Source of the DNA: an uncultured Pirellula sp.
GTDB taxonomy: Bacteria > Planctomycetota > Planctomycetia > Pirellulales > Pirellulaceae
Length of the DNA stretch: 64,000 nucleotides
NCBI GenBank assembly: GCA_903892355.1
Contig: CAITIE010000069.1
Location: 1 to 64,000, forward strand
Reading direction: 5' to 3'
The notes below the pieces were generated by a model. That model was not told the DNA's origin, did no database searches, and was given only the letters and a program-made list of their open reading frames with translations. Positions 26,680-52,403 of the stretch are shown here, in pieces (the first letter of the stretch is position 1; each line of letters begins with the position of its first letter). Position numbers and translations under genes: made by a program.

Positions 26680-27471
26680 ATGACTCGTATGGCACCATTA
26701 GAACTACAACGGTTGATCGATGGCGAAATGACACACGCACAGCGTGCCGACTTGCTGCATCGATTGGGTGACGATACCACGCAGTGGAAGTCGCTGGCTA
26801 TGTCGCTGCTCGAGGAGCAGCAGTGGAGTCGTGAGATCTCGCGAGTTGTAAGTCCGGAGAGTATACCTGTGCCCACACAGCACCATTCAGAGTCACCGAC
26901 GGTGATGTTGGCTCATCCGGCCCCTTCACTGATTCGGGATGAAAATACCGTTAATCACGGCGTCGGTACTTCGACTGGCATGTCGGCAGGGACAAAGCGA
27001 TCCTGGAATTGGGTGAGTGCTTTAGCCGCAGGTGCGCTGTTCACTGTCGGCCTCGCGGGCGGTTCCTGGATGCGATCCTTACAAAGTGCCGGGGAAGGGC
27101 AGGGGGGGGCGATTACGCAAAGTCCCATAAGTGCCGGGAATAGCGGTGCTGGGAACAGTCAAGTTGCAGCGAATGCAACCGAGAGCCCCTCGCGTTACAA
27201 ATCATCGTGGGAAGCAACGGCTCCGATGCGCATGGTTGTCTCGGGGCTTGATTCCAAGAAATCAGAGATTCCTTTGGTGAATGCCAAAGACATCGATCCA
27301 AAATTGCTGATGGCGAGCGAGGCGTTGGAGATGGCGAAGCTCAACAAGCAACTCCGTCGGCAAGGTTACGAGATGGATGTAAAGCCTCAGTACTATTCTG
27401 GAAACTTGGGAGATGGCCGAAAGGTGGTCGTCCCTATTCATAATGTTTCGCTTAAGCCTTATGGGTTGTAA
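26680..27471 (+). CDS. Single-pass membrane protein, probable anti-sigma factor
   Basis: About 263 residues. The cytoplasmic start (LQRLIDGEMTHAQRADLLHRLGDD...WKSLAMSLLEEQQWSREI) resembles the short N-terminal domain of anti-sigma factors, but without the zinc-binding Cys. One membrane segment is at about 113-133 (NWVSALAAGALFTVGLAGGSW). The C-terminal part is extracytoplasmic. ATGs at 26680 and 26689 are both possible. A KOPS-like octamer lies in the coding sequence just after the membrane segment and encodes part of GEGQGGAI. The assignment rests on order (directly after an ECF gene) and topology. Confidence 0.7.
   Translation: MTRMAPLELQRLIDGEMTHAQRADLLHRLGDDTTQWKSLAMSLLEEQQWSREISRVVSPESIPVPTQHHSESPTVMLAHPAPSLIRDENTVNHGVGTSTGMSAGTKRSWNWVSALAAGALFTVGLAGGSWMRSLQSAGEGQGGAITQSPISAGNSGAGNSQVAANATESPSRYKSSWEATAPMRMVVSGLDSKKSEIPLVNAKDIDPKLLMASEALEMAKLNKQLRRQGYEMDVKPQYYSGNLGDGRKVVVPIHNVSLKPYGL
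27097..27109 (+). other. KOPS-like octamer within the anti-sigma gene
   Basis: GGGCAGGG followed by extra G on the + strand, read in frame as Gly-Gln-Gly-Gly. Orientation points toward 43 kb. Confidence 0.6.
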
Positions 27472-27527
27472 GCGCGAACCGACCATTACTTTTCAACTTG
27501 GTGTTCACAAGAAGGGTTTAACGGATC

Positions 27528-28667
27528 ATGAAAAGCATTTTGCGATGGAATCGAAAGTGGTATGCGGCTACCTCGCTGATGGGAGTCGCTGTTCTTGGGC
27601 TAGCAGGTGCGAGTTCCGCTCGTGCTCAACAAGCATCAGACGATGGCAAAGCGATACAGAAGCAAACAGTAGTTGTTGTTAGCTCGGGTGACGAGAATAC
27701 TGAAAAGATCATTGCGAAGGTACGTGATGGTATCAAAGATCTTCCCAAGGAACTGCAAGAAAGGATTCTTAAGCAAGTCGAACAAGCGATCGCGGGTGCA
27801 TTGAATGCCAAGGTAGCCACGGCCGTAGGCGATGCCGTCGAAGGTCAGGGCCGGGCCACCACGCGTACGCTTACGGTCACCGCCGTGGAGAAGAGCGACG
27901 GGGACGATAACGCGAACGAGAAAACCAACAAGTCAGTTCAGACGCGTATTGTTGTGGTCGGCCCTGATGGAAAACCACAGGAGATGAATATCCAGCAAGG
28001 GATGCCGTTGCAATTGCCACTCATTCCGGGGCAAGTCATGTTCGGTCAACCCGGCCCAGCGGGCCAAGCCTTGAACGCCGTCAAAATCGAAGATTTACGG
28101 CAGATGATTCCAGGGATGTTCCCACAGGTAGTTCAAGGGCAGATGATGCGTATGGATGCGAACGGTCCCAGTTACCGTATCGGCATCGCCATCGTTCCTG
28201 AAGATGAGGGAGAAGGAGAGGATTCCGAAGGCTTGGTCGTCCGCGAAGTGATGGAAGACTCGCCGGCTGAAAAAGCGGGGATCGAGCAAGGGGATGTAAT
28301 CCTCTCGATCAATGGGAAAGAAGCTGAGGGATTCACGGATCTGCTCGAGGCCGTTCAAGCTGCTGGAAAGGCGAGTGAGGATTTACTGTTGCTCGTCGAA
28401 CGCGATGGCAAGGAGATGAAATTTGAAATCACTCCTGCGAAGACCGAAGGCTCCGATGTCGGCGTAGTAAATTTTAACTTGGCTCCTGAAGCAGGGATGA
28501 TTCTCGATTTAAACGACGCGAGAGTACCCGCAGGTATTGCCATCCAAGGACAAGCATTTCCGGGGATGATGGCGGGAAATACCGATGCACTTAAAGAAGA
28601 GATCGGCGAACTTAGAAAAGAGATCGAAGAACTTAAGGGGATGATCCGCAAGCTGATAGAAAAATAG
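27528..28667 (+). CDS. Secreted PDZ-domain protein with C-terminal coiled coil
   Basis: A 379-residue exported protein. A signal peptide is at 1-34 (ending ASSARAQQ). A PDZ domain lies at about 220-305 (IGIAIVP...VREVMEDSPAEKAGIEQGDVILSINGKEAEGFTDLL), with the usual Gly-Ile carboxylate loop region. The last 30 residues form a Glu/Lys/Leu heptad coiled coil (LKEEIGELRKEIEELKGMI). There is no protease domain. As the third gene of an ECF/anti-sigma operon it may sense misfolded envelope proteins and feed back on the anti-sigma factor (inference). Confidence 0.8.
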   Translation: MKSILRWNRKWYAATSLMGVAVLGLAGASSARAQQASDDGKAIQKQTVVVVSSGDENTEKIIAKVRDGIKDLPKELQERILKQVEQAIAGALNAKVATAVGDAVEGQGRATTRTLTVTAVEKSDGDDNANEKTNKSVQTRIVVVGPDGKPQEMNIQQGMPLQLPLIPGQVMFGQPGPAGQALNAVKIEDLRQMIPGMFPQVVQGQMMRMDANGPSYRIGIAIVPEDEGEGEDSEGLVVREVMEDSPAEKAGIEQGDVILSINGKEAEGFTDLLEAVQAAGKASEDLLLLVERDGKEMKFEITPAKTEGSDVGVVNFNLAPEAGMILDLNDARVPAGIAIQGQAFPGMMAGNTDALKEEIGELRKEIEELKGMIRKLIEK

Positions 28668-28687
28668 TCGCGGATTACGGTAGGAGC

Positions 28688-28723
28688 TACGATGGGTGCA
28701 TCGACGAAACCCGATGCATCGTA
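28688..28723. repeat. Interrupted inverted repeat after the PDZ gene
   Basis: Arms TACGAT...GCATCG (28688-28703, with GGGT bulged) and CGATGCATCGTA (28712-28723) can form a stem of about 12 bp. It lies between the stop codon and the terminator below and could stabilise the transcript end. Confidence 0.5.
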
Positions 28724-28730
28724 GATAAAC

Positions 28731-28780
28731 AAAGGATGGCTCGCTGCCGACTGGTCGGTCAAGGCGAGCTGTCCTTTTTT
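28731..28780 (+). terminator. Intrinsic terminator of the ECF/anti-sigma/PDZ operon
   Basis: A 14-bp stem with two G-T wobbles (AAAGGATGGCTCGC at 28731-28744, GCGAGCTGTCCTTT at 28764-28777) followed by a T-run. It lies about 65 bases after the PDZ stop codon. Confidence 0.85.
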
Positions 28781-28802
28781 ATTTTTGTGACTTGAACCCC
28801 CC

Positions 28803-29735
28803 ATGGCCCTCCCATCGACAGTGATCATTTCTGCCAATCCCAAGTCTGGCGCAAGGAGTGGATTGGACCAAGCTGCATCGTTGCGTCAGGCGCTGGAGCA
28901 GCGTGGGTTCGTCGCCGAGATGTATACCGATGTGGATGCGATGGCGTCGCGTGCGGATCGATGCCAGCAAGAAAGGACGTTGCGGACGGTGGTGTCCGCT
29001 GGTGGTGACGGAACCGCGTCGCTGGTCCTGTCGAAGATACCATCAGACATTCCGGTCACTTTGTTCCCTTTGGGCTCTGAAAACCTAGTCGCCAATTATT
29101 TCGAGATGACTCGCGATATCGATCGAACGGTAGCCTGCATCGAAAATCTCGACACAGAGCCGTTGGATTTGTTTCTAGCCAATGGGCGACTGACACTGCT
29201 GGTCGCCAGTGTTGGTTTCGATGCCGAAGTGGTACGACAAGTCCACGAGAATCGTAGATCGCATGTGACGCGGTCGGTCTACCGCATGGGTATACTTCGG
29301 GCGATGTTTTCGTATCGGTGGCCAAAGTTTCGCGTGCAGCGCCGCGATGCCGATGGGAATTGGGGTGAGTCGGTCACAGCCAATTGGGTCTTTGCGTTCA
29401 ATGTACCACGGTACGCCGCAGGGATTCGAATCATCGAATCGACATCGATCTCGGATGGATTGCTCGACGTGGGCATGTTTCAAGGTGGAAGGTTATGCCA
29501 GGGATTATGGAACTATGGAATGGTGGTGCGAGGCGTGCATGAGCAGTCGGGCGCCTGGAAACGATTTCAGACATCGGGGCTTCGGATCTCGTTGGTGACG
29601 GAAAATACAGCTGCGAACGTTCAACCCGAGGTCGCTTATGAAATCGACGGGGATGCGGGCGGGGTTCTTCCGTTGGAAGTGATCTACTCAGGCAGCAAAG
29701 CAATGATCGTTTCAGGACGATCTGTTGGCGCGTAA
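28803..29735 (+). CDS. Diacylglycerol/lipid kinase family protein
   Basis: A 310-residue protein of the DAGK catalytic-domain family (YegS/BmrU/DgkB fold). It has an N-terminal nucleotide-binding segment (VIISANPKSGARSG) and the signature VVSAGGDGTASLVL with GGDGT at about 67-71. The next motif is PLGSENLVANYF, where PLGTGND is typical; the replacement of GTGN by GSEN makes the catalytic loop atypical. A C-terminal beta-sandwich follows (DGLLDVGMFQGGR, EIDGDAG). It is likely to phosphorylate a lipid or sphingoid base, but the substrate is unknown. It is separated from the PDZ operon by a terminator and so is probably a separate unit. Confidence 0.8.
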   Translation: MALPSTVIISANPKSGARSGLDQAASLRQALEQRGFVAEMYTDVDAMASRADRCQQERTLRTVVSAGGDGTASLVLSKIPSDIPVTLFPLGSENLVANYFEMTRDIDRTVACIENLDTEPLDLFLANGRLTLLVASVGFDAEVVRQVHENRRSHVTRSVYRMGILRAMFSYRWPKFRVQRRDADGNWGESVTANWVFAFNVPRYAAGIRIIESTSISDGLLDVGMFQGGRLCQGLWNYGMVVRGVHEQSGAWKRFQTSGLRISLVTENTAANVQPEVAYEIDGDAGGVLPLEVIYSGSKAMIVSGRSVGA

Positions 29736-29808
29736 AGCGACGCGAAGGGGTGCAAAGCCTCGCTGCTATGTCGCAGGCGGAGTCACCAATGGGGTACCAA
29801 GTAGTCGA

Positions 29809-30378: not shown

Positions 30379-30402
30379 GGCGATTTGGTTGCGATGGATC
30401 CA

Positions 30403-33853: not shown

Positions 33854-36049
33854 TTATTCGACTTCGGAGGTCACGACATCGAGTACTCGGAGTTCGCAAT
33901 GCTCCAGCAATTTCCCCATGGGGCGGATCAACGCGCGATAAAGACTCCAAGAACCCAACGCCCATGGAATGGCCAGAAGGAGTGCCAGTGGGACTGGGGC
34001 CATCGCTGGAACGAACCGGCTGACTAGAAACTCGACTCCGAGCGGGGCGAGGCTCAAACAAAACATGGTGGGGATCAACGTCGAGAGGAGCAAGGTCATG
34101 ACAACCGCCTTCCAGTTGAAACGCTTGGGCTGGATCCCGCCAACGGGTAATCCAAACGGGGCCAAGATCGATTGGAGGTTTGTTACGAGGAAGTAAACCG
34201 GAATGAAGGTCAGAATCGCTAGCAGGGAGTAGAGAAGTTTATCCAAGGGGATGCGCCAGTAGATCCCAATCCCGATGCAAGTCAGTGCGGCTACCGCGAA
34301 TGAAGGGATGCCATAGGCAATATTGCGACCGTTTAAGATCCGATGCCTGGGTATTGGGGACAGGACCCACGCGCGGAAGCCCGAGCGATCGAACCCAAAC
34401 AAGTTGCCTAGGAAGCCTGAGCAAGTGTAAAGACAGAATCCTGCAATCCCCAAGGCGAGGAACGTGTCCAAAAACGGATTGGCCGCCGGTTTCCAGTAAC
34501 CCATGACGAACAGCAGAATGATCGGCTGGATGAAGGGACCCATCAACTGTAGCTTCAGCTCAGGCGCTCGCCATATCGAAATCCATGTTTGGGCGACAAT
34601 GGCGGACAAGGTGTCATCCAGCATCGGAAAGGTGCGCTCCATCCATGCGGTTCTTTCCCCTGAGCTTTCCAGCGGCCCAGCATTGGAACCGGTCTGGCTA
34701 ACCCTCGTCTGGCTAACGACTCGGGAGGATGTTGCAACCTCGTTGGGTTTGGACATGCCGGGATCGGAACCGAAACCGTGCTGATAGTACCGCAATGTCG
34801 TCGCATAGTTTCGTCGTAACGACCATGCTGAGATCGCCAGCATCCCAGGAACCAAACAAAGCGATTTCCAAGGTGACTTCGGAACCGACTCGGCACATGC
34901 CGCAAACCAAAAAGGGGGGGCAGTCAAATCGAGCCAACCCAAGGCCGTGTCCAACAACCCCTTGAACTCATTGAAGGATGCCGCAATAGAGGCAGGTACC
35001 GTGTCAGCAGATACCGTGTCAGCAGCAGGTACCGTGTCAGCAGCAGGTACCGTGGTTGGTGCTGATCCAAGCGGGACTTCGGACGGGGATTCTGGAGGGA
35101 GTGACTCGTCGACTTTTCGCGCGATGTTTCCATCCGTGTTTCCATCCGTGTTTCCCTCACGCAGGCTCTCGTCGAGCGAAGGAAGCGGTGCGTTGGGAGG
35201 CAACGTGCTATCGGGAAGCACCGTCGGTGGCGGGGGCAGGACGCTATTCAGGTTGGGCCTTGTAATGCGAGCAATGTAGGAGGTGATTTGACTGATCGAC
35301 AGACCAACTCCGGCTATGGTGACGCCCACGATAAACGGCAACAGCAACATCACCAATCGCCTGCGCTTAGGATTGGCGACCCACGCCGATAGGATGCTTC
35401 GCAAGTGAGATGTCAGCGCTGTGATCATCATCAAGTACGCCAGCAACGGGATAGCGATCAAAAGGACCGAGGGGCCATGCGAAATCGATCCGCCAAGGAT
35501 CAATCCGATGCAGATGCACGTGAAATAGATAAAGGGCAAGTTGCCCAAGGAAAGGATGTAGTTCAGGGAAAAGACATGGCTTGGGGAAATTGGCAAATGC
35601 ATGATCCGGTCCATGCTGACCCCATCGCTCCGAGTTAGCTCCGTCGAGATCTCGATGATCCAAAATAGAAGGAAGGCGAACACCAGACCATTCCAAACAT
35701 ACAACGCGTAGTCCACGGAACTAGCGTTTCGATAGAGAGCGAATCCAGCGATGGCACCGATGAGCACGGCGAAGATCGTCCCCATACTGATTGCCGAATA
35801 GAAGACAAAAACGATCACCTTGCCGAGGATCGATTCTCGAGACCAGCGGTTCGCTACGATGCGCGATTGAAGGAATAGAATCGCGCTGAAATGCTGAATG
35901 CACGTCCGAATCCAACCGGACAATGAGGCTTGGTCAGCGATGCTAACACGCCGCGATGACTGGTCTCTCGAGGGTAGGGGAGAGGATGGCAAGTTAGGGG
36001 AGGGCAGGGCAGGGGAGGGCAGGGGAGTGCCGGCAGACTGAGGGGTCAT
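33854..36049 (-). CDS. ABC-2-type transporter permease with low-complexity inserts
   Basis: A 731-residue multi-pass permease working with the ATPase encoded just upstream; the genes overlap by 4 bases (ATGA at 36046-36049). The first ~35 residues are Pro/Ser/Leu-rich (TPLPSPALPSPNLP) and coincide with three KOPS-like octamers. A membrane block is at about 65-265. A long soluble insert at about 280-360 has repeats (NTDGNTDGN, PAADTVPAADTVSADTV). A second membrane block spans about 480-710. Two half-transporter blocks in one chain suggest an ABC exporter of a lipid, antibiotic or polymer; the substrate is unknown. The low-complexity segments would lie outside the helices. Confidence 0.8.
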   Translation of the reverse strand: MTPQSAGTPLPSPALPSPNLPSSPLPSRDQSSRRVSIADQASLSGWIRTCIQHFSAILFLQSRIVANRWSRESILGKVIVFVFYSAISMGTIFAVLIGAIAGFALYRNASSVDYALYVWNGLVFAFLLFWIIEISTELTRSDGVSMDRIMHLPISPSHVFSLNYILSLGNLPFIYFTCICIGLILGGSISHGPSVLLIAIPLLAYLMMITALTSHLRSILSAWVANPKRRRLVMLLLPFIVGVTIAGVGLSISQITSYIARITRPNLNSVLPPPPTVLPDSTLPPNAPLPSLDESLREGNTDGNTDGNIARKVDESLPPESPSEVPLGSAPTTVPAADTVPAADTVSADTVPASIAASFNEFKGLLDTALGWLDLTAPPFWFAACAESVPKSPWKSLCLVPGMLAISAWSLRRNYATTLRYYQHGFGSDPGMSKPNEVATSSRVVSQTRVSQTGSNAGPLESSGERTAWMERTFPMLDDTLSAIVAQTWISIWRAPELKLQLMGPFIQPIILLFVMGYWKPAANPFLDTFLALGIAGFCLYTCSGFLGNLFGFDRSGFRAWVLSPIPRHRILNGRNIAYGIPSFAVAALTCIGIGIYWRIPLDKLLYSLLAILTFIPVYFLVTNLQSILAPFGLPVGGIQPKRFNWKAVVMTLLLSTLIPTMFCLSLAPLGVEFLVSRFVPAMAPVPLALLLAIPWALGSWSLYRALIRPMGKLLEHCELRVLDVVTSEVE
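34997..35055. repeat. Short tandem repeat inside the permease gene
   Basis: Units of TACCGTGTCAGCAG with or without CAGG repeat about four times and encode the PAADTV repeat of the soluble insert. Copy-number change in multiples of three would keep the frame. Confidence 0.8.
36002..36025 (+). other. Three KOPS-like octamers in the permease start
   Basis: Copies of GGGCAGGG begin at 36002, 36007 and 36017 on the + strand, within the first 20 codons of the minus-strand permease gene. The G-run spacing could also form a G-quadruplex. GGGTAGGG, another KOPS-type octamer, lies nearby at 35972-35979. All point toward 43 kb. Confidence 0.65.
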
Positions 36050-37136: not shown

Positions 37137-40100
37137 TTGGCGAGACGAAAGAAATCTCCTAGTTCCTACTCCCTCGAGGCGCTGCGTGCGATTCTCGATC
37201 AAGAGTTTTCATTACCAAAGCTTGGAGCAGCGTCGGAATTGCTCGGTGCGTTTGGCCTCAGTCGTACCGCCAATCGACCCGCAAGTGACCGCTCCGACGT
37301 CGCTGATAAGTCGGAAGTTGGAGATGCCGGCCATGGAAAAAACTCCAAGTCAAACGCTTCGCGACGAACGGAATTGACGCGTTCGGAACTATGGCAACCA
37401 CGTTTCCAAAAGATATTGGACCGGTTGCCTGCGACACTTGCCAAGTTGACGATGCCTGTCGAGGACGAGATCCAGTTCCTCGGAACGCATGCTTCTACCA
37501 TCGTTGAAGCTGCCTATCGGACCCCCACCGATGAGTTCCTAGTCTTCGTATCGACCGATTGGAACCTGGGTTGCGGTTGCACGTGCCCAGCGAGTGCTGG
37601 GCGAGGGCACTGCGCTCATACCGCGCGTTTGCTACAGCGAGTCAGCAAAGACCTCGCTCATCCGGAATTCGAGCTCGCTCAAACGGTTTCTGAGGGAGTC
37701 TTTTCCGACGAAGGCTTCCGATTGGTGGATTATTTGCCCGACCCAGGCCTTACGCAATTGAACGGACTCGATCGTTTGATCGCGTTACCCAAGTGGACGG
37801 AACAAGCTGAATCGATTCGAGTCGATCGCATTCCTCGTAGACGCTCGCGGGTCGTCTGGCACATCGAGTTGCATTGGGGGGTCGGAATCACCCCACACCT
37901 TCAAGTCGCGAACAAAAAGGGAAACGGTTGGAATCGCCCAAAAGAGATCGAGTTTGCCGAATTGTGGAGCAGCGGGATTGAATTGAGCGAAGCGGATAAA
38001 CGCGTTCGAAAATGGATCGAGCATGAACTTGCCGGAAATGATTTGCCAGTCATCGACATCCTGGAAACTCTCGTCGGACAACCCAATGTGTTTCTTGGCC
38101 ATGGGGAAGTGGAAGTTATTCTGAGCGATGGCTGCATTGTTGTCCATGAGATTCCTAAAGCACGCAAGCTGCGACTCTGTTTTCGCGAGGAAGCTCAATG
38201 GCCTTCGGCGAACGTTTGTTTCTTAGAAAATGGGATTGTGATCGTCTCTGAGATCGCCCGAAAAGTTGCGGTCGCGCGATTCGATGCGAAGCAAACAGAG
38301 ATGCTTCACGAACTGCGCCGTATCGCTGATATTCCAGCCAAGCATCGCGATGCGGTTTTGCAAAAGATGGAGATGCTGCAGTCGGTTCTCAATGTCGAGT
38401 TGCCGCCGCAGGAAGAGATCGCGGTCGCGGAGCTCGATGCCAAACCGGTGATGCTACTTAAAAGTTTTCGTGATGGAGTCTTAGAGTACGGACTTCGCGT
38501 GCGCGATGCCAAGGGCATTCTGCATCGTCCTGGACAAGGATCTTTATTCCACATCGATCGCAGCGGAGCGACGCCGACGCAGTGGGTTCGATCTGCGGCC
38601 AAAGAAATCGAACTTTGCCAGCAGTGGCAAGATCGCCTCGGGATCCAAGTTGCTAACTGGGACGGAGCCATCGAGGACTTCAGCGAAGCGATGCAACTCG
38701 TCGGTTCCTTAAAGGAAAACTCTCGTGATGGCCGACTCTTCGATCAAGCTGGAGTGGTTGTCGATGTTAGTGCGGTTGACGAAGTTCCAACGGCAAATCG
38801 TATCGAAGTGCTTTGGGATCCTAAGAGCGAAGCCAAGCCGCAAATAGCCGGCACCATCGGCATCGCAAACTTGCGAGTTGCCATCGAACGAAAACGGGAC
38901 TGGTTCCAATTGGCTGGTGAGTGCCAGCTGGGAGAATCATCGATCGGCCTCCAGCAATTGCTTGAGGCGATCGATGATAGCGAATCTGTCCGGGATGGTA
39001 TAGCAGCGGGGCGGGGCAGGGGGGGTAACGATGGGAACGAGTTCGTTCGCGTTGGGGATTTGGGATGGGCGAAAATCTCCACCGAGTTGCGACGGAATTT
39101 GAAGCAACTGCGAGAGTCGGTGCATAGCGAACGCAAGATTTTGAAATTCGATCATTCCGCGGCGATCGAGATGCGAGCGCTTCAGCAACGCCTTCCGATA
39201 CAAACCCATAAGGCGTGGGAGGAATGCTTGGATCGAGTCGCTAGCGCGCAGTCGATGGAGCCCACGTTGCCCGGCGGGTTCGCAGCGTCGCTGCGCGACT
39301 ACCAGCTCGATGGTTATCGGTGGATGCGACGGTTGTGCGAATGGGGCGTAGGCGGTGTTTTAGCCGATGACATGGGTCTCGGTAAAACCGTGCAAACATT
39401 GGGCGTGCTGCTCGACAGGGCAGGGGAGGGACCATCGCTCGTCATCGCACCGACATCGGTCGGTTTCAATTGGATGCGGGAGACAGAACGATTCGCTCCT
39501 GGAATCCAAGCCCATCTCTATCGCGAAACCGATCGCGACGATTTTCTTCGTGGCGTGGGACCCCATCAATTGGTGGTCGCTAGTTACGGATTGGCGTTGC
39601 GAGACATCGAGAAACTCAAACAAGTCGAGTGGAATATTCTCGTTCTCGATGAAGCGCAAGCGATCAAGAACGGGAGGAGTAAAACCTCGCAAGCGATCGC
39701 GGATCTCGGATCCAAGTGGACGGTCGCGCTGACGGGGACTCCGGTTGAAAATCATCTCGGTGAATTGTGGAGTTTGTTCCATACCGTCGCGCCGGGTGTC
39801 TTCGGGTCATGGGATCAGTTCCGTATTCGATTTGCTAGCCCCATCGAAAAAGACAACGATCCTGAGCGGCGAGATGCCCTGCGGAAACGATTGTTGCCTT
39901 TTGTTCTACGAAGGACAAAAAAAGAAGTGCTCAGCGATCTTCCGTCACGGACGGAAATGAATCTGATGGTCGAGTTGAGCCCCGCGGAACGCAAGCGTTA
40001 CGATGCGGTTCGCGCGAGTGCCATCCGCGAAGCGGAGACCATTGCTAAATCCTCCGAGGATCAAGAGCAACGCTTCCGGATCTTGGCGATATTGACCCGA

Positions 40101-40694: not shown

Positions 40695-40703
40695 GGGCAG
40701 GGG
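40695..40703 (+). other. KOPS-like octamer between convergent genes
   Basis: GGGCAGGGG on the + strand, three bases from the stop codon of the minus-strand gene at 40706. Confidence 0.6.
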
Positions 40704-40705: not shown

Positions 40706-41431
40706 TTAGCGAATCCAGTTGCCCGACTGCTCGCGGACCATGTTGAACCAATCGGTCGCCGTGTGAGGGATGTTGTGCTGGTGCTGGTATCCGAATCGTT
40801 GCATGATCCCTTCGTCGTGGTATGCCAGAACGCCCAGCAGGATTAGCAAGGCGTAGGTCATGAGATTGGGAATACGATTTTCACCCCAGAATTTGAGCGC
40901 GGTTCCAAAGCTGTGCTTGAACACGTAACGACCTCGTCGAAATTCGACCGACCAAATTTCATCGAGCAGGATATGCGACATGAAGCCGATGAAGACGGCT
41001 ACGGTTTTGAAAAGTCGAAGGTTGATGTTTTCGGAGGAGGAAACCAGAAAGACGAATAGGGCGGCGATGAATGCCGCGGGCAAGCTGTGCCACATCCCGC
41101 GGTGGACCGTGTATCGTCGGAACAGTTCTGCGATGCCGAACCGGAGGAAGAAGTAGATGCCGCCGGTGATCAGGAGCATTGTTTCGTGGGAGAGCCCGAC
41201 CCGCTCGAGCCGGCTGACCATCAGCATCGGGACGAAGGCCGCAGCGAACGCGACGGCTTCGCGAAGCGGAATGCCCGAATCGCTATCCAAATCGGGTAGC
41301 ATTCCGCTGACGGCGCAGAGCCCACCTGCGATCACGCAGCTTTCCCAAGGCATCCCAGATTGGTATCCCCCCAAGCCGAACAACGCGCCGGCGATGGTGC
41401 TGACCGTAATATGCGTTTTGAAATCGGCCAT
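40706..41431 (-). CDS. YdjM-like membrane-bound metal-dependent hydrolase family protein
   Basis: A 241-residue membrane protein of the YdjM (LexA-binding, inner-membrane hydrolase) family. Signatures are an N-terminal His (KTHITVSTIAGALFG), GMLPDLDSDSG with Asp residues (about 43-53), VHRGMWHSLPAAF (about 108-120) and SHILLDEIWSVEFR (about 152-165). The His/Asp pattern suggests a metal site at the membrane face. A pair of KOPS-like octamers sits directly upstream of the ATG, so the usual ribosome-binding position is C-rich in the mRNA (CCCCCCTGCCCT then ATG). Confidence 0.82.
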   Translation of the reverse strand: MADFKTHITVSTIAGALFGLGGYQSGMPWESCVIAGGLCAVSGMLPDLDSDSGIPLREAVAFAAAFVPMLMVSRLERVGLSHETMLLITGGIYFFLRFGIAELFRRYTVHRGMWHSLPAAFIAALFVFLVSSSENINLRLFKTVAVFIGFMSHILLDEIWSVEFRRGRYVFKHSFGTALKFWGENRIPNLMTYALLILLGVLAYHDEGIMQRFGYQHQHNIPHTATDWFNMVREQSGNWIR

Positions 41432-41432
41432 A

Positions 41433-41469
41433 GGGCAGGGGGGAGCTTGAACGAATTAGGGCAGGGGGG
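41433..41469 (+). other. Two KOPS-like octamers upstream of the YdjM-like gene
   Basis: Copies of GGGCAGGGGGG at 41433-41443 and 41459-41469 on the + strand. The first begins two bases from the ATG of the minus-strand gene. These are the last permissive + copies before the dif-like site 1.5 kb away. Confidence 0.65.
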
Positions 41470-41714: not shown

Positions 41715-42560
41715 ATGCAAACCTACGACATCATCATGTTGGTCGTTCTCGCGGCCGCGACGATTTTTGGAGCGATCAAAGGATTTGCTTGGCAAGTAGC
41801 ATCGTTGGCCTCGATCATTGCCAGTTATTTTGTTGCTAGCTATTTCCGCAACGATGTGGCCAAGGTGATCAATGCACAGCCCCCTTGGAACATGTTTTTG
41901 GCGATGTTGCTGTTGTATTTCGGAACGAGTTTGGCGATTTGGTTGTTGTTTCGCATGATCAGCTCGTCGATCGACAAAATCCGGTTGAAGGAGTTCGATC
42001 GTCAGTTGGGAGCAGGTTTTGGACTGATTAAAGGTGCCGTGCTTTGCTGCTTGATCACCATGTTTGCCATGACGTTGTTGGGTCGAACGCAGCAGCAAGC
42101 GATCGCAAACTCACGGAGCGGTCATTACATTGGCCAAGTCCTTTCGCAAGCGGGCGGAGTATTGCCGGCCGAGGTGAAAGAGGTCATCGGGCCGGTCCTT
42201 GCGAATGTCGGGAAGCAGTTGGAGCAGAGTCGCGATCCAAACTACAACCCGCAGGTGGCTCCTGGTTTGCCAGGGGGCGATGATCCTTGGTCCAAAGGTT
42301 TGGACGCGGCGGTGAACGCGTGGGGGCAAGAGATGACGGGTGGAGGTCAAGCACCAGCGGGAGAACGAAACACTTCGGGCGGGATCTTGAGCCGCTGGTT
42401 GAATCCCAACAATACACCGGCTCCAAGTAATCCGCCGCCGGCGGCTCCTCTGCCGGGCAATCCGAATCCGGGCAATGTTCCGGGCGGTTTGTACCCTCCT
42501 GGTTATCCAGCGAGTTTTCCGAGCACTGGAGGGAATTTGAACCCTGGTTACAACCCGTAA
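41715..42560 (+). CDS. CvpA-family membrane protein
   Basis: A 281-residue protein. The first ~150 residues hold four membrane helices with the CvpA pattern (YDIIMLVVLAAATIFGAIKGFAWQVASLASIIASYFVA; LGAGFGLIKGAVLCCLITMFAMT). CvpA proteins are linked to colicin V production and stress tolerance in other bacteria; here the role is unknown. The C-terminal ~100 residues are Pro/Asn/Gly-rich (APSNPPPAAPLPGNPNPGNVPGG) and probably disordered. It is the last gene before the gene-poor gap holding the dif-like site. Confidence 0.82.
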   Translation: MQTYDIIMLVVLAAATIFGAIKGFAWQVASLASIIASYFVASYFRNDVAKVINAQPPWNMFLAMLLLYFGTSLAIWLLFRMISSSIDKIRLKEFDRQLGAGFGLIKGAVLCCLITMFAMTLLGRTQQQAIANSRSGHYIGQVLSQAGGVLPAEVKEVIGPVLANVGKQLEQSRDPNYNPQVAPGLPGGDDPWSKGLDAAVNAWGQEMTGGGQAPAGERNTSGGILSRWLNPNNTPAPSNPPPAAPLPGNPNPGNVPGGLYPPGYPASFPSTGGNLNPGYNP

Positions 42561-42580
42561 GTCTGCCCAGGCGTCAAAAG

Positions 42581-42978: not shown

Positions 42979-43006
42979 ACGTCCGATAATGTTTCTTATG
43001 TTCGGT
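42979..43006. other. dif: Candidate dif site (XerC/XerD recombination site)
   Basis: A 28-bp element with the dif layout. The left 11-bp arm is ACGTCCGATAA, the 6-bp centre is TGTTTC and the right 11-bp arm is TTATGTTCGGT. In the 17-base core from ATAA through TTATGTT it matches the E. coli dif, as I recall it, at 15 positions. The outer ends differ. It lies in non-coding DNA at the centre of the converging GGGCAGGG octamers. It is the only ATAA-N6-TTAT arrangement I found by eye between 41.5 and 46.8 kb. Function is inference. Confidence 0.65.
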
Positions 43007-43461: not shown

Positions 43462-44538
43462 TTGCTTCCGTCAAACTTTTCCGGCCTCGGCCCCGTGGAT
43501 CCTCCCGCTGACGGGCCGGCTTCCGGTGCGCTAGAGCCCGCCCAAAATCCCTCGCCGAGTCCCTCGGCGCGGAACGTCCTGACTATCATCGCAACGCTCT
43601 TGGTGATTTGGGGGTGCGGCTGGCTGATCCGAAACTTGGCTCGCTCCGATGAAGTCGCTCGGTTGGCGTCCATGATCCTGTTCGCCCCGGTGCCCGTGGT
43701 CTCCATTTGGTTCGGTTGGCGCACGCGATGGCGAATCGCAGACTGTCTCGCCGCTGCATTCTCGCTTCTGCTTGGATTCATAGTCTGGAACGGGATCATG
43801 CTCCAAGGCCTAGGCAATCCCTCGCAGCTTCGCGAGGTCATCTCTTTGAACGCTCTTCATTGGGTTCTGTTTGTGCTGGCCGGCGCCACAACCGCCCGAT
43901 GGATTCAGTGGGTCTCCCGAATCGGAATATGGTCTATGGCCGTTAGTGATGAGGAGCCCGAGACCAAGGCGTTATCGGTGATTCGGCTGATGGGGATAAC
44001 GGCTGCAGTAGCCGCGCTGGCGGTTTCCTATCGAGTGATCTTTAACGCTTCGATCGAGGAAGCCAAACCCTGGGTTGATATGGGGTTTCCAAATGGGGCG
44101 ACTCACTGGTACTCGTGGTTTCCGCTGCGTTCCAAAATCTGGGTTTCGGGAGCAATCGGTGGTCTGCTGATCGGAGTTCATTGGTTCGCGATCGTCGGGA
44201 TCCTTCGCTCGGGTTCGTACCGAATGGCCGGACTCGTGCTCTGGATCGTTGTCGCAGCCGGCCTTCGGTGGAGTGCGAATCAGATTTACTGGGGTGAGAT
44301 ACCGATCTTGGGTGATGGACCGATCCTGATCGATCTCGGCTTCCAGTCGCTGAGTGGAAGTTTAGCTTTTCTGCCAGTGCAGATCGCAATCCAAACGCTC
44401 GTCGAAGGAACCTTGCAAACCCTCATCACGTGCGCGTCAATCTATTGGTTGCGCGGTTTGGGTTATCGGATTGGGTTATCGGATTGGGCGAAGGGGCAGG
44501 GCCCCCCTGCCCTAGCCTTCCCTAGCGGGATGCAGTAG
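43462..44538 (+). CDS. Multi-pass membrane protein of unknown function
   Basis: A 358-residue protein with about eight hydrophobic helices from residue 38 on (VLTIIATLLVIWGCGWLIRNL; ASMILFAPVPVVSIWFGW; ALHWVLFVLAGATTARWI; and so on). It has a Pro/Ala-rich N-terminus. I recognise no family. The start is a TTG at 43462 with AGGA 7 bases upstream; no ATG is available nearby in frame. Its C-terminal tail (AKGQGPPALAFPSGMQ) is encoded by a palindromic pair of KOPS-like octamers, so the end of the protein may have been shaped by that DNA element. It is the first gene to the right of the dif-like site. Confidence 0.65.
   Translation: MLPSNFSGLGPVDPPADGPASGALEPAQNPSPSPSARNVLTIIATLLVIWGCGWLIRNLARSDEVARLASMILFAPVPVVSIWFGWRTRWRIADCLAAAFSLLLGFIVWNGIMLQGLGNPSQLREVISLNALHWVLFVLAGATTARWIQWVSRIGIWSMAVSDEEPETKALSVIRLMGITAAVAALAVSYRVIFNASIEEAKPWVDMGFPNGATHWYSWFPLRSKIWVSGAIGGLLIGVHWFAIVGILRSGSYRMAGLVLWIVVAAGLRWSANQIYWGEIPILGDGPILIDLGFQSLSGSLAFLPVQIAIQTLVEGTLQTLITCASIYWLRGLGYRIGLSDWAKGQGPPALAFPSGMQ
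44493..44512. other. Palindromic pair of KOPS-like octamers
   Basis: GGGGCAGGG (44493-44501, + strand) abuts CCCCCCTGCCC (44502-44512), so the two octamers point at each other and could form a hairpin. It is the exact place where the octamer orientation switches along the window. Confidence 0.65.
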
Positions 44539-44700: not shown

Positions 44701-45708
44701 CTAGACGCTGAAGGTATATCCGTGTTGGCTCACGGTGCCATCTTCGAGCTGCTCAAGGTACGAGCCCATTTTCCGAAACTTGTCATAGCGGCGTTCGAGG
44801 AGTGTTTCGGGATCGGTTTTGACCAATTGCTCCAGGGTTTTTGCAAGATAGTTTTTCAGGCGAGCCGCCATTTGGTGATGGTCTCGATGGGCGCCGCCGA
44901 GGGGTTCCTCGATGACATCGTCGACCACACCGAGTTGCGGCAAATGCTCCGAAGTGAATCGCAACACATCGGCCGCCTTAGGCGCATGCTGATGGCTCTT
45001 CCACAGGATCCCCGCGCAACCCTCGGGGCTGATCACGGAGTAATAGGCGTACTGCAGCATGGCGATGCGATCCCCGACGCCGATCCCGAGTGCGCCACCC
45101 GAGCCGCCTTCGCCGATGACGATACAAATGATCGGCGTTTTGAGTTGGCTCATCAGGAACATGCTTTCCGCAATCACTTGAGCTTGTCCTCGTTCCTCGG
45201 CGCCGATCCCTGGGTAAGCACCTGGGGTATCGATGAAGCAGATAATTGGGATGCCGTACTTTTCCGCTAGTTTCATCTTGGCCATCGCCTTGCGATAGCC
45301 TTCAGGGTGGGCGCAACCGAAATGGCAAGCGGCGCGTTCCTTAAAGGTTCGGCCCTTTTGGTGCCCGACCACCATGACTTTTTGGCGCCCCAGTTTGGCG
45401 AATCCAGTGAGAAGAGCTCGGTCGTCGCCAAAGAACTTATCGCCGTGCAATTCGATGAACTCATCGAAGGCTAGGTTCAAGTAGTCGCGGGTGTAAGGAC
45501 GGTCCTTGTGGCGAGAGACCTGGACGACTTGCCAAGGCGTCAGTTTCGAATAAATCTCTCGCGTCGTATCGGTCCAACGGCGTCGCAGTTGGCGAGCCAG
45601 TTCTTGCTGTTCCTCCGACGGGTTTGCGGCGGCTTCGATTTCGCCCAATTGCGTTTCGATATCCAGCATCGGTTGTTCGAATTCAAAGCCTTTTGCTGCG
45701 CTTGGCAT
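44701..45708 (-). CDS. accA: Acetyl-CoA carboxylase carboxyltransferase subunit alpha
   Basis: A 335-residue carboxyltransferase subunit that transfers the carboxyl group from biotin to acetyl-CoA, starting fatty acid synthesis. The N-terminal helical region (FEQPMLDIETQLGEIEAA...) leads to the crotonase-like core: LLTGFAKLGRQKVMVVGHQKGRTFKERAACHFG, FIDTPGAYPGIGAEERGQAQVIAESMF, GEGGSGGALGIGVGDRIAMLQYAYYSVISPEGCAGILWK. The length and motifs are full. The beta subunit gene accD is not in this window. A duplicated GTCAGTTACTGGAA (about 44669-44698) lies at its 3' end. Confidence 0.95.
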   Translation of the reverse strand: MPSAAKGFEFEQPMLDIETQLGEIEAAANPSEEQQELARQLRRRWTDTTREIYSKLTPWQVVQVSRHKDRPYTRDYLNLAFDEFIELHGDKFFGDDRALLTGFAKLGRQKVMVVGHQKGRTFKERAACHFGCAHPEGYRKAMAKMKLAEKYGIPIICFIDTPGAYPGIGAEERGQAQVIAESMFLMSQLKTPIICIVIGEGGSGGALGIGVGDRIAMLQYAYYSVISPEGCAGILWKSHQHAPKAADVLRFTSEHLPQLGVVDDVIEEPLGGAHRDHHQMAARLKNYLAKTLEQLVKTDPETLLERRYDKFRKMGSYLEQLEDGTVSQHGYTFSV

Positions 45709-45832: not shown

Positions 45833-46738
45833 CTAGGTCGGGGCGTCGATCCGGCCGCCTCCTTGGAAATCGTCGAACGGGTTTACATCCGGAATGCGAG
45901 GCGGCTTCTTAAAGATCGGTGTGCCTCGGAGCATTTTGAGGACATCCCACATGCTATCTGGCCGATCCTCAGGTTTCTTGGCAAGCATCTTTCGCACGAC
46001 TGCGTTGAACTCGGGAGTCACGTTTTCATTGCCGACGAGGATCGACGGGACCGATGCCGAAAGGTGTTTGCTCAAGAGTTCGTTGGGTGTGTTTCCGGTA
46101 AAGGGAGCGCGGCCCGTGATCAATTCATAGATCATGCAGCCCATCGAGTAGATATCGCTGCGCGGGTCCAAGGTTTGTCCTCGGATTTGTTCTGGGGACA
46201 TATAAGATCGCGTCCCTTCCACTTTGGTTTTACCAGCAAAGAGTTTGCCGAGTCCCGTTTTGACTTTTTTGGCGATCGTAAAGTCGATCATTTTGACTTC
46301 CCAATTCCGGCTCAAAAGAAAATTGTCAGGCTTGATATCGCAGTGGACATATCCCTTGGAGTGCAGGAAGTAGAGTGCCTCGGAGGATTGTTCGACGATG
46401 CTCGGCAACTGGTATGCGATGGATTCGGGGCCTTTTCGCATGGCCATTTTCAAGTTGAGTTCGCTGAAAAGTTCCAAAACGATGAACGGGGTTTCGGCAT
46501 CGGTTCGATACTCGATGAGTTTGATGATGTTCTTGTGGCTCATTGCTTTGGCCACTTCAAATTCATGCTTGAGGAACGCGATTTCCTCCTTGTTTCCTCG
46601 CTGTTCGGGGCGGAGTACTTTTAACGCAAAGTGGGCGTTGTCCTTGTCTCGAATCGCTTCCCAGACTTGGCAGGTGCTACCGAGTCGGATCAGTCGGGCG
46701 AGTCGATAGGAGCCGAGAAAGTCGCGAACCTTGACCAT
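45833..46738 (-). CDS. Cytosolic Ser/Thr protein kinase
   Basis: A 301-residue Hanks-type kinase without a membrane segment. The catalytic core spans about 10-270: a degenerate G-loop IRLGSTCQVWEA, ATP-binding Lys in FALKVL, catalytic CDIKPDNFLL (CD replaces the usual HRD), DFT (in KMIDFTIAKK) instead of DFG, and SPEQIRGQ. The HRD and DFG changes are notable and could mean an altered or weak kinase. The start at 46738 (MVKVRDFLGSYRL) is preferred; the longer frame to 46825 runs through a KOPS-like motif and is not conserved-looking. The gene stands alone. Confidence 0.78.
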   Translation of the reverse strand: MVKVRDFLGSYRLARLIRLGSTCQVWEAIRDKDNAHFALKVLRPEQRGNKEEIAFLKHEFEVAKAMSHKNIIKLIEYRTDAETPFIVLELFSELNLKMAMRKGPESIAYQLPSIVEQSSEALYFLHSKGYVHCDIKPDNFLLSRNWEVKMIDFTIAKKVKTGLGKLFAGKTKVEGTRSYMSPEQIRGQTLDPRSDIYSMGCMIYELITGRAPFTGNTPNELLSKHLSASVPSILVGNENVTPEFNAVVRKMLAKKPEDRPDSMWDVLKMLRGTPIFKKPPRIPDVNPFDDFQGGGRIDAPT

Positions 46739-47150
46739 ATTGAAGCTACTGCTTGTTGAGCTACTGCGGGGGCAAAAGGAATCAGGACCCCCCTGCCCTA
46801 CCCTGCATCGGGAACGCCGAGGCAAGTGAAACGGATGCCGATTGTGCCTTGGTATGCCGTTTCGATTGGAACTGCGTTTTCGCCTCGGAACATCGAGTCG
46901 AACACAGAAAGTTCGGGTCGAACACGGGATGGCCGAGGTACGAGCCTGGGGGCCGCATCTTCAGTACTATAGGCAAAACCCGCAAAATCCGAAAGGATTG
47001 ACCTTTCCGGCGACTCCCCTACATTCTCTCGCAATGCCACGTGGTTGGGCGAGTTCAGTCCCGGGGCGTATCGCGAAAAAAGCATCGCAACTCGAGCGTT
47101 GAGTGGCGTAAGTCGTATTCAAGTCCTTCTATTTCCAAGGAATCTATATC
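46739..47150. other. 412-bp divergent gap with a KOPS-like octamer
   Basis: No gene is supported. It lies between the divergent kinase and tpx genes and must contain both promoters. It includes one KOPS-like octamer (46788-46798). Confidence 0.5.
46788..46798 (-). other. KOPS-like octamer upstream of the kinase
   Basis: CCCCCCTGCCC, i.e. GGGCAGGGGGG on the minus strand, about 50 bases upstream of the kinase ATG. It points toward 43 kb. Confidence 0.6.
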
Positions 47151-47669: not shown

Positions 47670-47726
47670 ACCTGAGTGTTGGATCGATTTTCAAGAATTG
47701 AATTTGCGGGGGCGTAGAATGACCTA

Positions 47727-47764
47727 CCCCCCCTGCCCTCTGCTCTGTCCCCCCTGCCCTGCCC
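47727..47764 (-). other. Three KOPS-like octamers after tpx
   Basis: GGGCAGGG on the minus strand at 47731-47738, 47752-47759 and 47757-47764 in the short space after the tpx stop codon. All point toward 43 kb. Confidence 0.62.
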
Positions 47765-47789
47765 TGAGGCGTTGGGCCATGAAAACAAG

Positions 47790-47829
47790 AAGCTCTTACC
47801 TCGATGGATTGAAATCGAGGTAAGAGCTT
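47790..47829. terminator. 16-bp perfect inverted repeat between converging genes
   Basis: Arms AAGCTCTTACCTCGAT (47790-47805) and ATCGAGGTAAGAGCTT (47814-47829) with an 8-base loop. The flanking T-runs are short on both strands. It lies between the ends of tpx and the coiled-coil gene, where a bidirectional terminator is expected. Confidence 0.72.
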
Positions 47830-47927
47830 TAAACCAGATAAAAGCTTTAGATATAAGCCTTGCTGAAAGGGATACCGCGCATGTCTGCTTCGATTCTTCA
47901 AAGATCCGCGGTCTATTCATCAAAAAG

Positions 47928-48557: not shown

Positions 48558-48731
48558 AAAGGATGGTCCTGGGTTGGGAGTGTAGGAGAGGCAAAGCCCA
48601 CTTGCACCGGAGCCTCGAGGTTCCGCGCGGGCGCGAGAGCAGGTTTTTGATTGCTCCCATGAAACGACTATACTTGGCGGAGGGAGTGGGTGACAAGGTC
48701 TGGGGCCGAGATAGGATTACGTCACAATAGG

Positions 48732-49676: not shown

Positions 49677-49865
49677 TTGGTCGCAAGCAGACCGTAAACC
49701 GGATCGCGATCGTGGTGGCACGCAATGCTCCTTTGTGACGACGAATAAAACAGGAACCCCAGTATAACCCAAGGCCGAAGACATCAAAATCAGAATCCGC
49801 GAGTGGGGATCGATCCTCTGAGCAGTAGCTCCCGGTTTATTCAAGGAAGTCTGGGTTGTTTCGGG

Positions 49866-52403
49866 CTATTGCACAGAGTGCCCTACTGAAAAACATTCCG
49901 CGTCACTGGAGAGATAATCCCATGGGACCCTTGAGATCGCACCTGATTGTTCGAGTTTGAGAACCGCGTCCCGCATGGCTGTCTCGAAATTGCTTCGAGC
50001 CATGCGATCGCCAGCGGCGATGCTGCGCCAATCGATGACGAGGTACCGTACTATGGCTTTAGGTGCGACTGGGGCTTTCGGTGCGACTGGGGCCTTCGGT
50101 GGGTCGGGCAGACTAAAGTTGGATCGAAGCAACGGTTCGAGCGAACCAAGTTCCCCTGGTCCGACTTCCAGCGTCGGCACCGTGAGGAAAAATGTATCGG
50201 CAGTTCCGATCACCAGCCACCGATCCGTTGCGGGAGCGATCTTGGAGATCGTGGAGATGTTCTGCGAGGCAGGAAAGCGATTGATCCAATCGGTATAGAT
50301 CGGGTAGGTCGATGGATTGGCTGATAGGCTGTTCGAAGGAGGCGAAACGACCGAGTTCGAGCTCACAGCCCCCCCCTGCCCTGCCCTACCCTCTCTGTCT
50401 TTTGCTATGCCTTCTTGATCTTCCCCCCTGCCCTCCCCTGCCCCGGAATTGTCAGGTTCTGCATCGCGGTTTATCGCTTTGGCTTGGTTGTTGGTCGGAG
50501 CATTGGCGATCGAAGCGGGGATCAGTCGATCGATGGCCACCAATAGGCGTGGGTCGGCGGTAGGCCAGGCGGCCAATGCGATGGTGCTCCATGCGAGCGA
50601 GATCAATCCAAGTGGGAAGAGCCAATAGCCGCCAGATCTTTCGCGAAGCCATTGGATCGCACGTGCGGCCGGCAAAGCCAGCATCGGAGTTGCGACAACC
50701 CAATCGCGATCGAGGTGGGTGGTGAACACCCACCAGAGAAGGATCCAAACCAACCATACGATCGACGTGAAGCGAATGTTTCGATCGCGATAGCCTAGTA
50801 CAGCGCCGATCGCAGCAAGTGGCATCAGCAACAGTCCATGCGCCATGGAGTTCCAAAGGATTCCGTGGAATGCCTCGGCTACGTCGCGGAACGAGGCGCC
50901 GAGCATGGCGATGTTCGAGTGTGCAATCGCCAACGTCGGAAGGAAATCGTGGGATAGCGGCGGGCCATGCAGGTAAGCTCGAAGTTGCCATGGAACCGCA
51001 GCAACGATGGCTACCGAGAGCATCGCAATTTTTGCGATGCCGTATCGACTTGCAATGGAGTGACTTTTGCGGAGTTCACCTGTTCGATCGCGAGGGTCGC
51101 GGTAGATGACCCAATGAAGAAGAATGTTGCCGACGATGATTCCGAGTAGCGTTTGGTAGCTGAGAGCTCCAGTAGCGATGCACCACGCGCAAAGGCTGGG
51201 TATGGACTTTCTATTTGGCATTTGGATCAAAACCATCGATGCAGCGATCCAAAGCATTACCCCCCCTGCCCTGCCCCCGAGCCGGACCAGTTCGTGCATC
51301 CCAGGGTGAGCGACGAGTAGAAACGCGATCAGCGCGGCGGCCAACGCACCGGATCGCGAGCGGATGTTCGACGCAATCAGTAGGATTGCGATCAACCAAA
51401 GCGATGCGTGGAGGACTTGTCCGGAGAGCCATGCGCACGTGAGGTGGCGAAGCATGGCTTCGGGTGTTTCGCTGGGATTGAAGGTTTCTAGCAGCGAAGT
51501 GATGGCGAGGGCCGGCATGATGCTCCCTTGAGGGCCGTTCGCAGCACGATGGAAGTCGAACCATACGATCGAGTTATCCAGAAAGTATTTTTTGGTCGAG
51601 AGCATCTCGATCTCTCGGACATCGGCATCGTAGCTGGGCAAGCAGGAACCGAGCAGCGCGATGGCAGCGAGCCAGCAAGAACCGACAACCGATAACCCGA
51701 TCAAGCGACGGCTCCACGAGGATGCGAACGATGGATCGTTTTCAGTGGATCGCGAATCGGGTTCCTCAAGAAACTCAAGAGGCTCAAGAGGAATCGAGCG
51801 ACTCATGGATTCGGACGCATCGCGAGCAGAAGCGTTATCGACTTGAGGTGTAACGGCATTCGATCGAAAGGATCCGAAGAGCCATCGCAATGCGAGAGCT
51901 AGAAGCACCGTGGATAGGGCGAGTGGCAGGAAGGATCGCGGTCCGAAAATCCAACCGAGAACGAGAGTGAGTTGCGATAGGATCGCGTGGCCGATTGCGA
52001 TCGAAAACCCGTGAGTAGCCATCGGGCCATTCCATTGGTCGAGCGATTCCCGTTTAGCGATCGGGTGGCCGATGCACCAGGAGACGGCTAGCCATCCTGA
52101 CGCGAGGAGCAGCATGGGAATTCGGTCCAGCCATGTAGCGTAGATTAGGCCGCCAGTCCATTGTTTCCAGAGCTCGGACAGGCTGGCGACGTCGACCAAC
52201 CAAAGTTCCAGTCGTGAGGTTTGTAGGAATTCTCCGTAGGGGTCGGCCAGCGGCATGGACGGAATTAGTAGCATTGCTGCCGAGTAGCCGACCAGGAGCA
52301 GTCCGGCTGCAACGATTGCGATCCATTTTCCTGTTTGTGGCTGTTTTTTTGGCACTTGAGAGTGGGCCGAGCGAGCGAAATCGTGGCTGAGAACTAAACT
52401 CAC
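49866..52403 (-). CDS. Large multi-pass membrane protein, possible GT-C-type glycosyltransferase
   Basis: About 845 residues with a dozen or more hydrophobic helices, beginning near residue 25 (WIAIVAAGLLLVGYSAAMLLI). A long first extracytoplasmic loop after a helix has an acidic patch (SYDADVREIEMLSTKKYFLDNSIVWFDFHRAANGPQGS) of the kind seen in GT-C sugar transferases such as ArnT; this is suggestive only. A low-complexity segment near residues 700-740 (GAGEGRGEDQEG...GRAGQGG) coincides with four KOPS-like octamers. Another repeat, APKAPV, follows. Start is uncertain: no ATG is near; GTG codons at 52403 and 52355 and a TTG at 52565 are candidates. Confidence 0.6.
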   Translation of the reverse strand: MSLVLSHDFARSAHSQVPKKQPQTGKWIAIVAAGLLLVGYSAAMLLIPSMPLADPYGEFLQTSRLELWLVDVASLSELWKQWTGGLIYATWLDRIPMLLLASGWLAVSWCIGHPIAKRESLDQWNGPMATHGFSIAIGHAILSQLTLVLGWIFGPRSFLPLALSTVLLALALRWLFGSFRSNAVTPQVDNASARDASESMSRSIPLEPLEFLEEPDSRSTENDPSFASSWSRRLIGLSVVGSCWLAAIALLGSCLPSYDADVREIEMLSTKKYFLDNSIVWFDFHRAANGPQGSIMPALAITSLLETFNPSETPEAMLRHLTCAWLSGQVLHASLWLIAILLIASNIRSRSGALAAALIAFLLVAHPGMHELVRLGGRAGGVMLWIAASMVLIQMPNRKSIPSLCAWCIATGALSYQTLLGIIVGNILLHWVIYRDPRDRTGELRKSHSIASRYGIAKIAMLSVAIVAAVPWQLRAYLHGPPLSHDFLPTLAIAHSNIAMLGASFRDVAEAFHGILWNSMAHGLLLMPLAAIGAVLGYRDRNIRFTSIVWLVWILLWWVFTTHLDRDWVVATPMLALPAARAIQWLRERSGGYWLFPLGLISLAWSTIALAAWPTADPRLLVAIDRLIPASIANAPTNNQAKAINRDAEPDNSGAGEGRGEDQEGIAKDREGRAGQGGAVSSNSVVSPPSNSLSANPSTYPIYTDWINRFPASQNISTISKIAPATDRWLVIGTADTFFLTVPTLEVGPGELGSLEPLLRSNFSLPDPPKAPVAPKAPVAPKAIVRYLVIDWRSIAAGDRMARSNFETAMRDAVLKLEQSGAISRVPWDYLSSDAECFSVGHSVQ
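50062..50097. repeat. 18-bp tandem coding repeat (APKAPV)
   Basis: Two copies of GGTGCGACTGGGGCTTTC and its close variant, encoding the Ala-Pro-Lys-Ala-Pro-Val repeat near the end of the membrane protein. Confidence 0.8.
50369..50443 (-). other. Four KOPS-like octamers in the membrane protein gene
   Basis: GGGCAGGG on the minus strand at 50374-50381, 50379-50386, 50426-50433 and 50436-50443. They encode the Gly/Arg/Glu/Ala-rich segment of the protein. All point toward 43 kb. Confidence 0.65.
51260..51276 (-). other. Two KOPS-like octamers in the membrane protein gene
   Basis: GGGCAGGG on the minus strand at 51264-51271 and 51269-51276, encoding Gly-Gly-Arg-Ala-Gly-Gly between helices. Both point toward 43 kb. 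Confidence 0.62.

Follow-up and report, generated by a model that had tools for sequence, protein, structure and literature searches.

Octamers converging on a dif-like site in an uncultured Pirellula: a candidate planctomycete KOPS array

In Escherichia coli and Vibrio cholerae, the FtsK orienting polar sequences (KOPS, GGGNAGGG) belong to one system with the gamma domain of FtsK and with XerCD acting at dif. The SpoIIIE recognition sequences (SRS) of Bacillus subtilis and the KOPS of Lactococcus lactis are likewise polar guides for pumps of the FtsK/SpoIIIE type, and the available text of PMC5357621 describes them as differing in sequence (in L. lactis, A-rich heptamers), which sets them apart from the octamer studied here. 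Architecture imparting sequences (AIMS) are also 8-mers that become more abundant and more strand-biased towards the terminus, as described in the available part of PMC5993296. Here we describe an array of GGGCAGGG in a 64-kb stretch of DNA (positions 1 to 64,000 of contig CAITIE010000069.1; hereafter the window) from an uncultured Pirellula sp. of the Pirellulaceae (Planctomycetota). The array resembles the E. coli and V. cholerae system in its octamer, in its convergence on dif, in a gamma-bearing FtsK and in the presence of XerC and XerD, whereas it differs in that 20 copies are packed into the 10 kb on either side of the switch point, in that polarity is absent elsewhere in G006 (a complete genome of the window's genus), and in that FtsZ was not found in 60 genomes. 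It also differs from AIMS, which the same part of PMC5993296 defines as abundant on the leading strand, in being local and in running counter to the GC skew on one arm. For Planctomycetes, dif prediction failed in a 2011 survey, according to its available text (PMC3025954). Within the open-access literature, consulted in part and without subscription papers, we found no description of a planctomycete KOPS or dif, nor of a terminus-confined form of KOPS in a phylum lacking FtsZ. We consider it very probable, on sequence grounds, that the octamers are planctomycete KOPS, that is, sites at which the FtsK translocase loads in a set orientation, with dif at 42979-43006.

Octamer orientation and the dif-like site

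The window holds 23 copies of GGGCAGGG, compared with 2.39 expected (standard deviation 1.58; maximum of 7 in 100 shuffles). Nine of the ten copies left of 42979 lie on the + strand and 12 of the 13 right of 43006 on the - strand, so that strand and side of the switch point are clearly associated (9/1 and 1/12, Fisher p = 1.1e-4), and 20 of the 23 are no more than 10 kb away from the switch point. The source genome (6.18 Mb in 158 contigs) contains 141 copies in all, compared with 170 of the reversed control octamer; since 118 of the 141 are spread over the 6.12 Mb outside the window, the cluster is local. Orientation is independent of gene direction, as judged by same-strand copies lying in open reading frames (ORFs) of both strands and between ORFs, the ORFs for this comparison having been picked by hand from a program-made list. 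An earlier reading of this DNA, made by a model from the letters alone (the sequence-only reading), had put forward the 23 copies against about two expected by chance, the change of strand and the indifference to gene direction; all three claims hold, and every coordinate and strand in it was right.

The strand switch coincides with a dif-like site at 42979-43006, whose layout and arm assignment we take from its likeness to the E. coli dif sequence. As inverted repeats the arms are only partial, agreeing at 6 of their 11 positions. The dif pattern matched once in the window and never in 100 shuffles, and this exact match is the single one in the source genome. We infer an active dif here, and the coincidence of the site with the strand switch is one reason for reading the octamers as KOPS for FtsK.

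Among 59 relatives, the dif core CGTCCGATAA-N6-TTATGTTCGG was matched in 54 with up to 3 mismatches and in 49 with up to 2. The inner arms are intact in the 3-mismatch matches of G039 and G043; the sole matches of G011, G012 and G027 also have 3 mismatches and do not look dif-like. Seven of the genomes are single contigs: G006, G017, G018, G039, G043 and G059 have one match each, and G052 has one exact match and one with 3 mismatches. An exact scan of named genomes returned at least 117 stretches, and 79 of the 80 titles listed are planctomycetes, many of them Pirellulaceae or Pirellulales; the remaining one (L161) is given just as 'bacterium'. The draft G028 has two exact matches (G028:C116:42-67 and G028:C151:15545-15570), one of them at the extreme end of a contig; a contig end present in duplicate, or a second replicon, may account for the pair.

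Polarity among relatives

Of the 54 relatives with a match, 19 were picked for complete chromosomes or long contigs, and their dif flanks were fetched. More copies of GGGCAGGG pointed toward dif than away from it in all 20 genomes (the window and the 19 relatives), with a summed ratio of 287:17, as against 14:12 for the reversed control GGGACGGG in the same stretches. When all 8-mers within 20 kb of dif were ranked blindly in these genomes, GGGCAGGG came first (284:16; trinucleotide expectation 13.2 toward and 9.2 away), and 4 of its 16 wrong-way copies are halves of palindromes, the window's copy at 44494 included. The named loci (at least 117, a set that overlaps in part with the previous one) gave 298 copies toward and 25 away, as against 11:15 for GGGACGGG and 26:13 for the control GGGCTGGG; the balance per locus was 84 for, 4 against and 5 ties, with 24 lacking a copy. 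Variant forms of GGGNAGGG were also polarised in the named loci (A 42:8, T 42:7, G 50:9). That GGGCAGGG is the E. coli octamer and that other GGGNAGGG forms are polarised too argue for KOPS.

A longer, 12-base form, AGGGCAGGGGRG, was polarised without exception on contigs bearing dif. It was searched in 10 of the 27 genus members, chosen and all with the dif centre TGTTTC, and occurred 101 times in these ten genomes including the source genome, compared with 8 times for its reversed control. On the contigs bearing dif (in G006, the chromosome) 92 of 92 copies point toward dif; the other nine are on contigs lacking it (one in G029, three in G031, five in G005). All 14 copies of the source genome lie inside the window and point toward dif, seven per side, and all six of G006 lie within 16 kb of dif.

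The octamer also converges on dif outside the window's order, where four genomes of the same class gave a ratio of 18:0 and GGGCAGGG was again the top-ranked 8-mer. Outside the class (L232-L247), polarity close to the dif-like site was highest for the 8-mers GTGGGGGA (41:3) and GGTGGGGG (43:4). About 28 of the 41 toward-copies of GTGGGGGA come from the related-looking G123, G094, G110 and G076, and this 8-mer, at 11:9, is without polarity in the window's order (20 genomes). Planctomycete classes other than the window's may use different KOPS.

One could suppose that a mutational strand bias makes the G-rich octamer track the G-rich (leading) strand. KOPS are enriched on the leading strand in known genomes, according to the available text of PMC5357621, and the octamer lies on the G-rich strand in 24 of 40 arms; in the other 16, the window's right arm included, it lies on the G-poor strand. 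Arms of opposite skew and equal octamer polarity exist, and the reversed control octamer was without pattern in both sets of loci. In the window the skew amounts to +0.0705 on the left of dif and +0.0695 on its right, yet the octamer changes strand there, and we found no change of sign at dif in either the window or G006. Since the skew does not switch, it is ruled out as the cause of octamer polarity, and we regard strand bias as an extremely improbable explanation. For the same reason the site is a convergence point of dif and KOPS and not a proven replication terminus, so that the claim of a terminus in the sequence-only reading finds no support. It is also reported, in the available part of a 2026 paper, that dif need not mark replication termination (PMC13342612).

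The octamers, the dif-like site and its neighbouring genes are listed in Table 1. The wrong-way copy far to the left is probably background. With regard to the genes, matches to the kinase and to accA lie within 8 kb of dif in all 19 relatives; on the left side, the fetched flanks contain a match to the CvpA-like gene in 15 of 19 and to the YdjM-like gene in 11 of 19. Taking the window's genus and G017 as reference, dif is inverted relative to accA and the kinase gene in 9 of the 19 relatives (G013, G018, G059, G043, G052, G039, G048, G034 and G035).

Table 1. Octamers, dif-like site and adjacent genes in the window (start positions of grouped copies in brackets).
Feature	Position	Strand	Remarks
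Wrong-way GGGCAGGG	17369..17376	-	26 kb from dif
GGGCAGGG toward dif	27097..27104	+	inside 12-mer AGGGCAGGGGGG
Three GGGCAGGG (36002, 36007, 36017)	36002..36024	+	two inside 12-mers
GGGCAGGG	39014..39021	+	
GGGCAGGG	39418..39425	+	inside 12-mer
GGGCAGGG	40695..40702	+	intergenic among chosen ORFs, inside 12-mer
YdjM-like gene	40706-41431	-	left of dif
Two GGGCAGGG (41433, 41459)	41433..41466	+	between YdjM-like and CvpA-like genes, both inside 12-mers
CvpA-like gene	41715-42560	+	left of dif
dif-like site ACGTCCGATAA-TGTTTC-TTATGTTCGGT (11-6-11)	42979..43006	+	XerC-type arm left, XerD-type arm right (by likeness to E. coli dif)
Palindromic pair	44494..44512	+ (44494), - (44505)	44494 is the exception; 44505 inside 12-mer
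accA	44701-45708	-	right of dif
Protein kinase gene	45833-46825	-	right of dif
GGGCAGGG	46791..46798	-	inside 12-mer
Three GGGCAGGG (47731, 47752, 47757)	47731..47764	-	two 12-mers; not within chosen ORFs
Four GGGCAGGG (50374, 50379, 50426, 50436)	50374..50443	-	two 12-mers
Two GGGCAGGG (51264, 51269)	51264..51276	-	one 12-mer
Isolated GGGCAGGG	62106..62113	-	19 kb from dif

Extent of the array along the chromosome

The sequence-only reading had taken the octamers for a polarity map of the chromosome, and for the window's genus this finds no support, as polarity in G006 is lost about 40 kb away from dif. Within 40 kb of dif, 19 of 20 octamers of this genome point toward it, at a density of up to 55 per 100 kb, whereas farther out than 40 kb the count toward dif is 60 of 111 and the density about 1 to 3 per 100 kb; these figures concern 131 of its 163 copies, a part of which were followed as far as 5.14 Mb. 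The full set of 25 AGGGCAGGG in G006 gave a similar picture, with 8 of 8 toward dif within 40 kb and 10 of 17 beyond. In the source genome outside the window, neighbouring octamers agreed in 24 of 42 cases, compared with 21.6 in shuffles (p 0.27), a comparison of little power made on 77 of the 118 copies. Confinement was thus seen directly in one complete genome, G006.

In contrast to G006, polarity along the whole chromosome is present for AGGGCAGGG in the complete G043, which belongs to the same family and another genus: 78 of 80 copies point toward dif over the 7.18-Mb chromosome, and the two exceptions flank the antipode of dif, one on either side. In G039, 45 of 45 point toward dif among the matches listed (45 of 86). 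The second switch of bias, which the sequence-only reading had predicted at the origin, has a counterpart near the antipode of dif in G043 and was not seen in G006. The G043 switch lies at G043:C1 2.43-2.70 Mb, where the GC skew, as sampled, is weak and without pattern and DnaA-like genes are elsewhere; this region is likely the origin. The position of DnaA genes was tried as an origin marker and found uninformative, with two DnaA-like genes per genome that in G043 and G039 lie far from the antipode of dif. A long and a shorter DnaA-like gene were found in each of G000, G006, G043, G039, G017, G018, G059 and G052.

The sites themselves turn over. Of 21 octamers of the window that could be aligned with those of G008, a near relative, 17 are identical, whereas none could be aligned with five further genus members except three in G009, and the polarity nevertheless persists. 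Keeping polarity while sites turn over is what would be expected under selection. These data also bear on the proposal that the octamers are a mobile or expanding repeat, or a G-quadruplex or terminator hairpin family, which accumulated here by chance. Some octamers do follow one another in 5-base tandem steps, most of all in G009, and some form hairpins (44494/44505, and the palindromic wrong-way copies mentioned above). Such a family gives no reason for every 12-mer on the dif contigs to point at dif, the copies keep their polarity in species where, the nearest relative aside, they are mostly unalignable, and the G006 copies beyond 40 kb show no agreement between neighbours (50 of 102, compared with 52.4 in shuffles, p 0.72). 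We therefore judge a repeat family very unlikely. A GGGCA-type run about 1.8-2.0 kb left of dif in G009 (locus L038) packs twelve octamers into about 140 bases, and might represent one way in which octamer arrays grow.

The translocase and the proposed mechanism

The FtsK of the source genome carries FtsK_4TM, alpha, motor and gamma domains, and a gamma domain was found in the source genome and 53 of 59 relatives. The best match of the gamma domain in the PDB is the FtsK gamma of 2ve8/2ve9. Of these two entries, 2ve9 is a structure with KOPS DNA. PF17854 corresponds to FtsK_alpha in our domain search, whereas the available text of PMC12283558 labels it gamma and states that the FtsK of Planctopirus limnophila is without it. 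Models for XerD and XerC both exceed their NCBIfam cut-offs in the source genome, and a search of 8 genomes gave a XerD match above the cut-off in every one. The C-terminal domain of FtsZ was found in none of 60 genomes (the source and 59 relatives), as compared with 13 of 14 control genomes. The sequence-only reading proposed FtsK steering in cells lacking FtsZ; the KOPS-like polarity at a dif-like site, the gamma-bearing FtsK and the missing FtsZ domain support it, whereas a chromosome-wide map for this genus and a replication terminus are not supported.

Sequence evidence speaks strongly for KOPS and FtsK: it shows the dif-like site, the polarity and its conservation, the confinement seen in G006, and that FtsK, XerC and XerD are present. 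In the mechanism that we propose, the gamma domain of FtsK would read the G-rich strand of the octamer, the motor would assemble facing dif and then pump DNA dif-ward, and on reaching dif FtsK would switch on XerCD, leading to dimer resolution. In the window and in genus members like G006, the sites would make up a compact, dense landing strip, most of them less than 10 kb from dif and many in the form AGGGCAGGGGRG, and elsewhere the chromosome would give no guidance.

Several points weigh against this interpretation. The genomes are kin, so that 20 of 20 does not amount to 20 independent trials. The arms of the dif-like site are only partly symmetric. The reversed dif core gave 13 matches in 11 of 60 genomes at up to 3 mismatches, and 3-mismatch matches alone therefore mean little. 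Arrays are weak in G026 (6:1), G010 (5:2) and G007 (8:1) of the same genus, which is thus not uniform, and in G010, G001, G004 and G011 the octamer is 2- to 3-fold above control genome-wide; confinement of the array may hold for only part of the genus. In other classes, GGGCAGGG gave 21:6 in 16 stretches from 15 genomes, with 0:3 in one genome, and other 8-mers rank higher. The source FtsK scores 420.7 with the NCBIfam FtsK model NF007615, the cut-off of which is 1566. Finally, at positions matching E. coli E1303 and E1306 the gamma domain has D in 20 of 20 proteins and A in 16, E in 3 and S in 1, respectively, whereas R1300 is conserved in all 20 (20 of 21 proteins were extracted, G017 being left out). 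According to the available texts, residues 1289-1297 of E. coli FtsK read RQFRIGYNR (PMC5052618), the numbering used here, and mutations at R1300, E1303 and E1306 make E. coli FtsK defective in KOPS reading (PMC2680272). Because E1303 and, in most of the proteins, E1306 are changed, the gamma domain of this lineage may use shifted DNA contacts.

The same two residues, out of three that read DNA, could also point to a different machine, the octamers being polar sites for Chi-like recombination or for a terminus-organising or fork-arrest protein. Chi-like sites are polar as well, and the octamers here are clustered next to dif. The octamer, however, is exactly the E. coli KOPS and tolerant at its fourth base, sites converge on dif over the whole chromosome in G043, and clustering in the 10 kb next to dif would be unexpected for Chi. 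We consider another machine unlikely and keep to KOPS for FtsK.

In FtsZ-less P. limnophila, ftsK appears essential and the mechanism of division is described as unknown (available parts of PMC6952346 and PMC10632474). Having a defined dif and KOPS makes the role of FtsK without FtsZ directly testable. A more specific proposal strikes us as evenly balanced: in part of the genus, chromosome-wide steering would have been reduced to a strip of about 10-40 kb at dif, read as AGGGCAGGGGRG by an altered gamma domain in cells without FtsZ. If this is true, FtsK would load solely at the last DNA remaining at the division site, and replichore polarity would be unneeded. The occurrence of a local and a chromosome-wide array in one family is a natural experiment on the amount of KOPS that a chromosome needs, and in G043 the KOPS suggest an origin-terminus axis where the sampled GC skew gives none.

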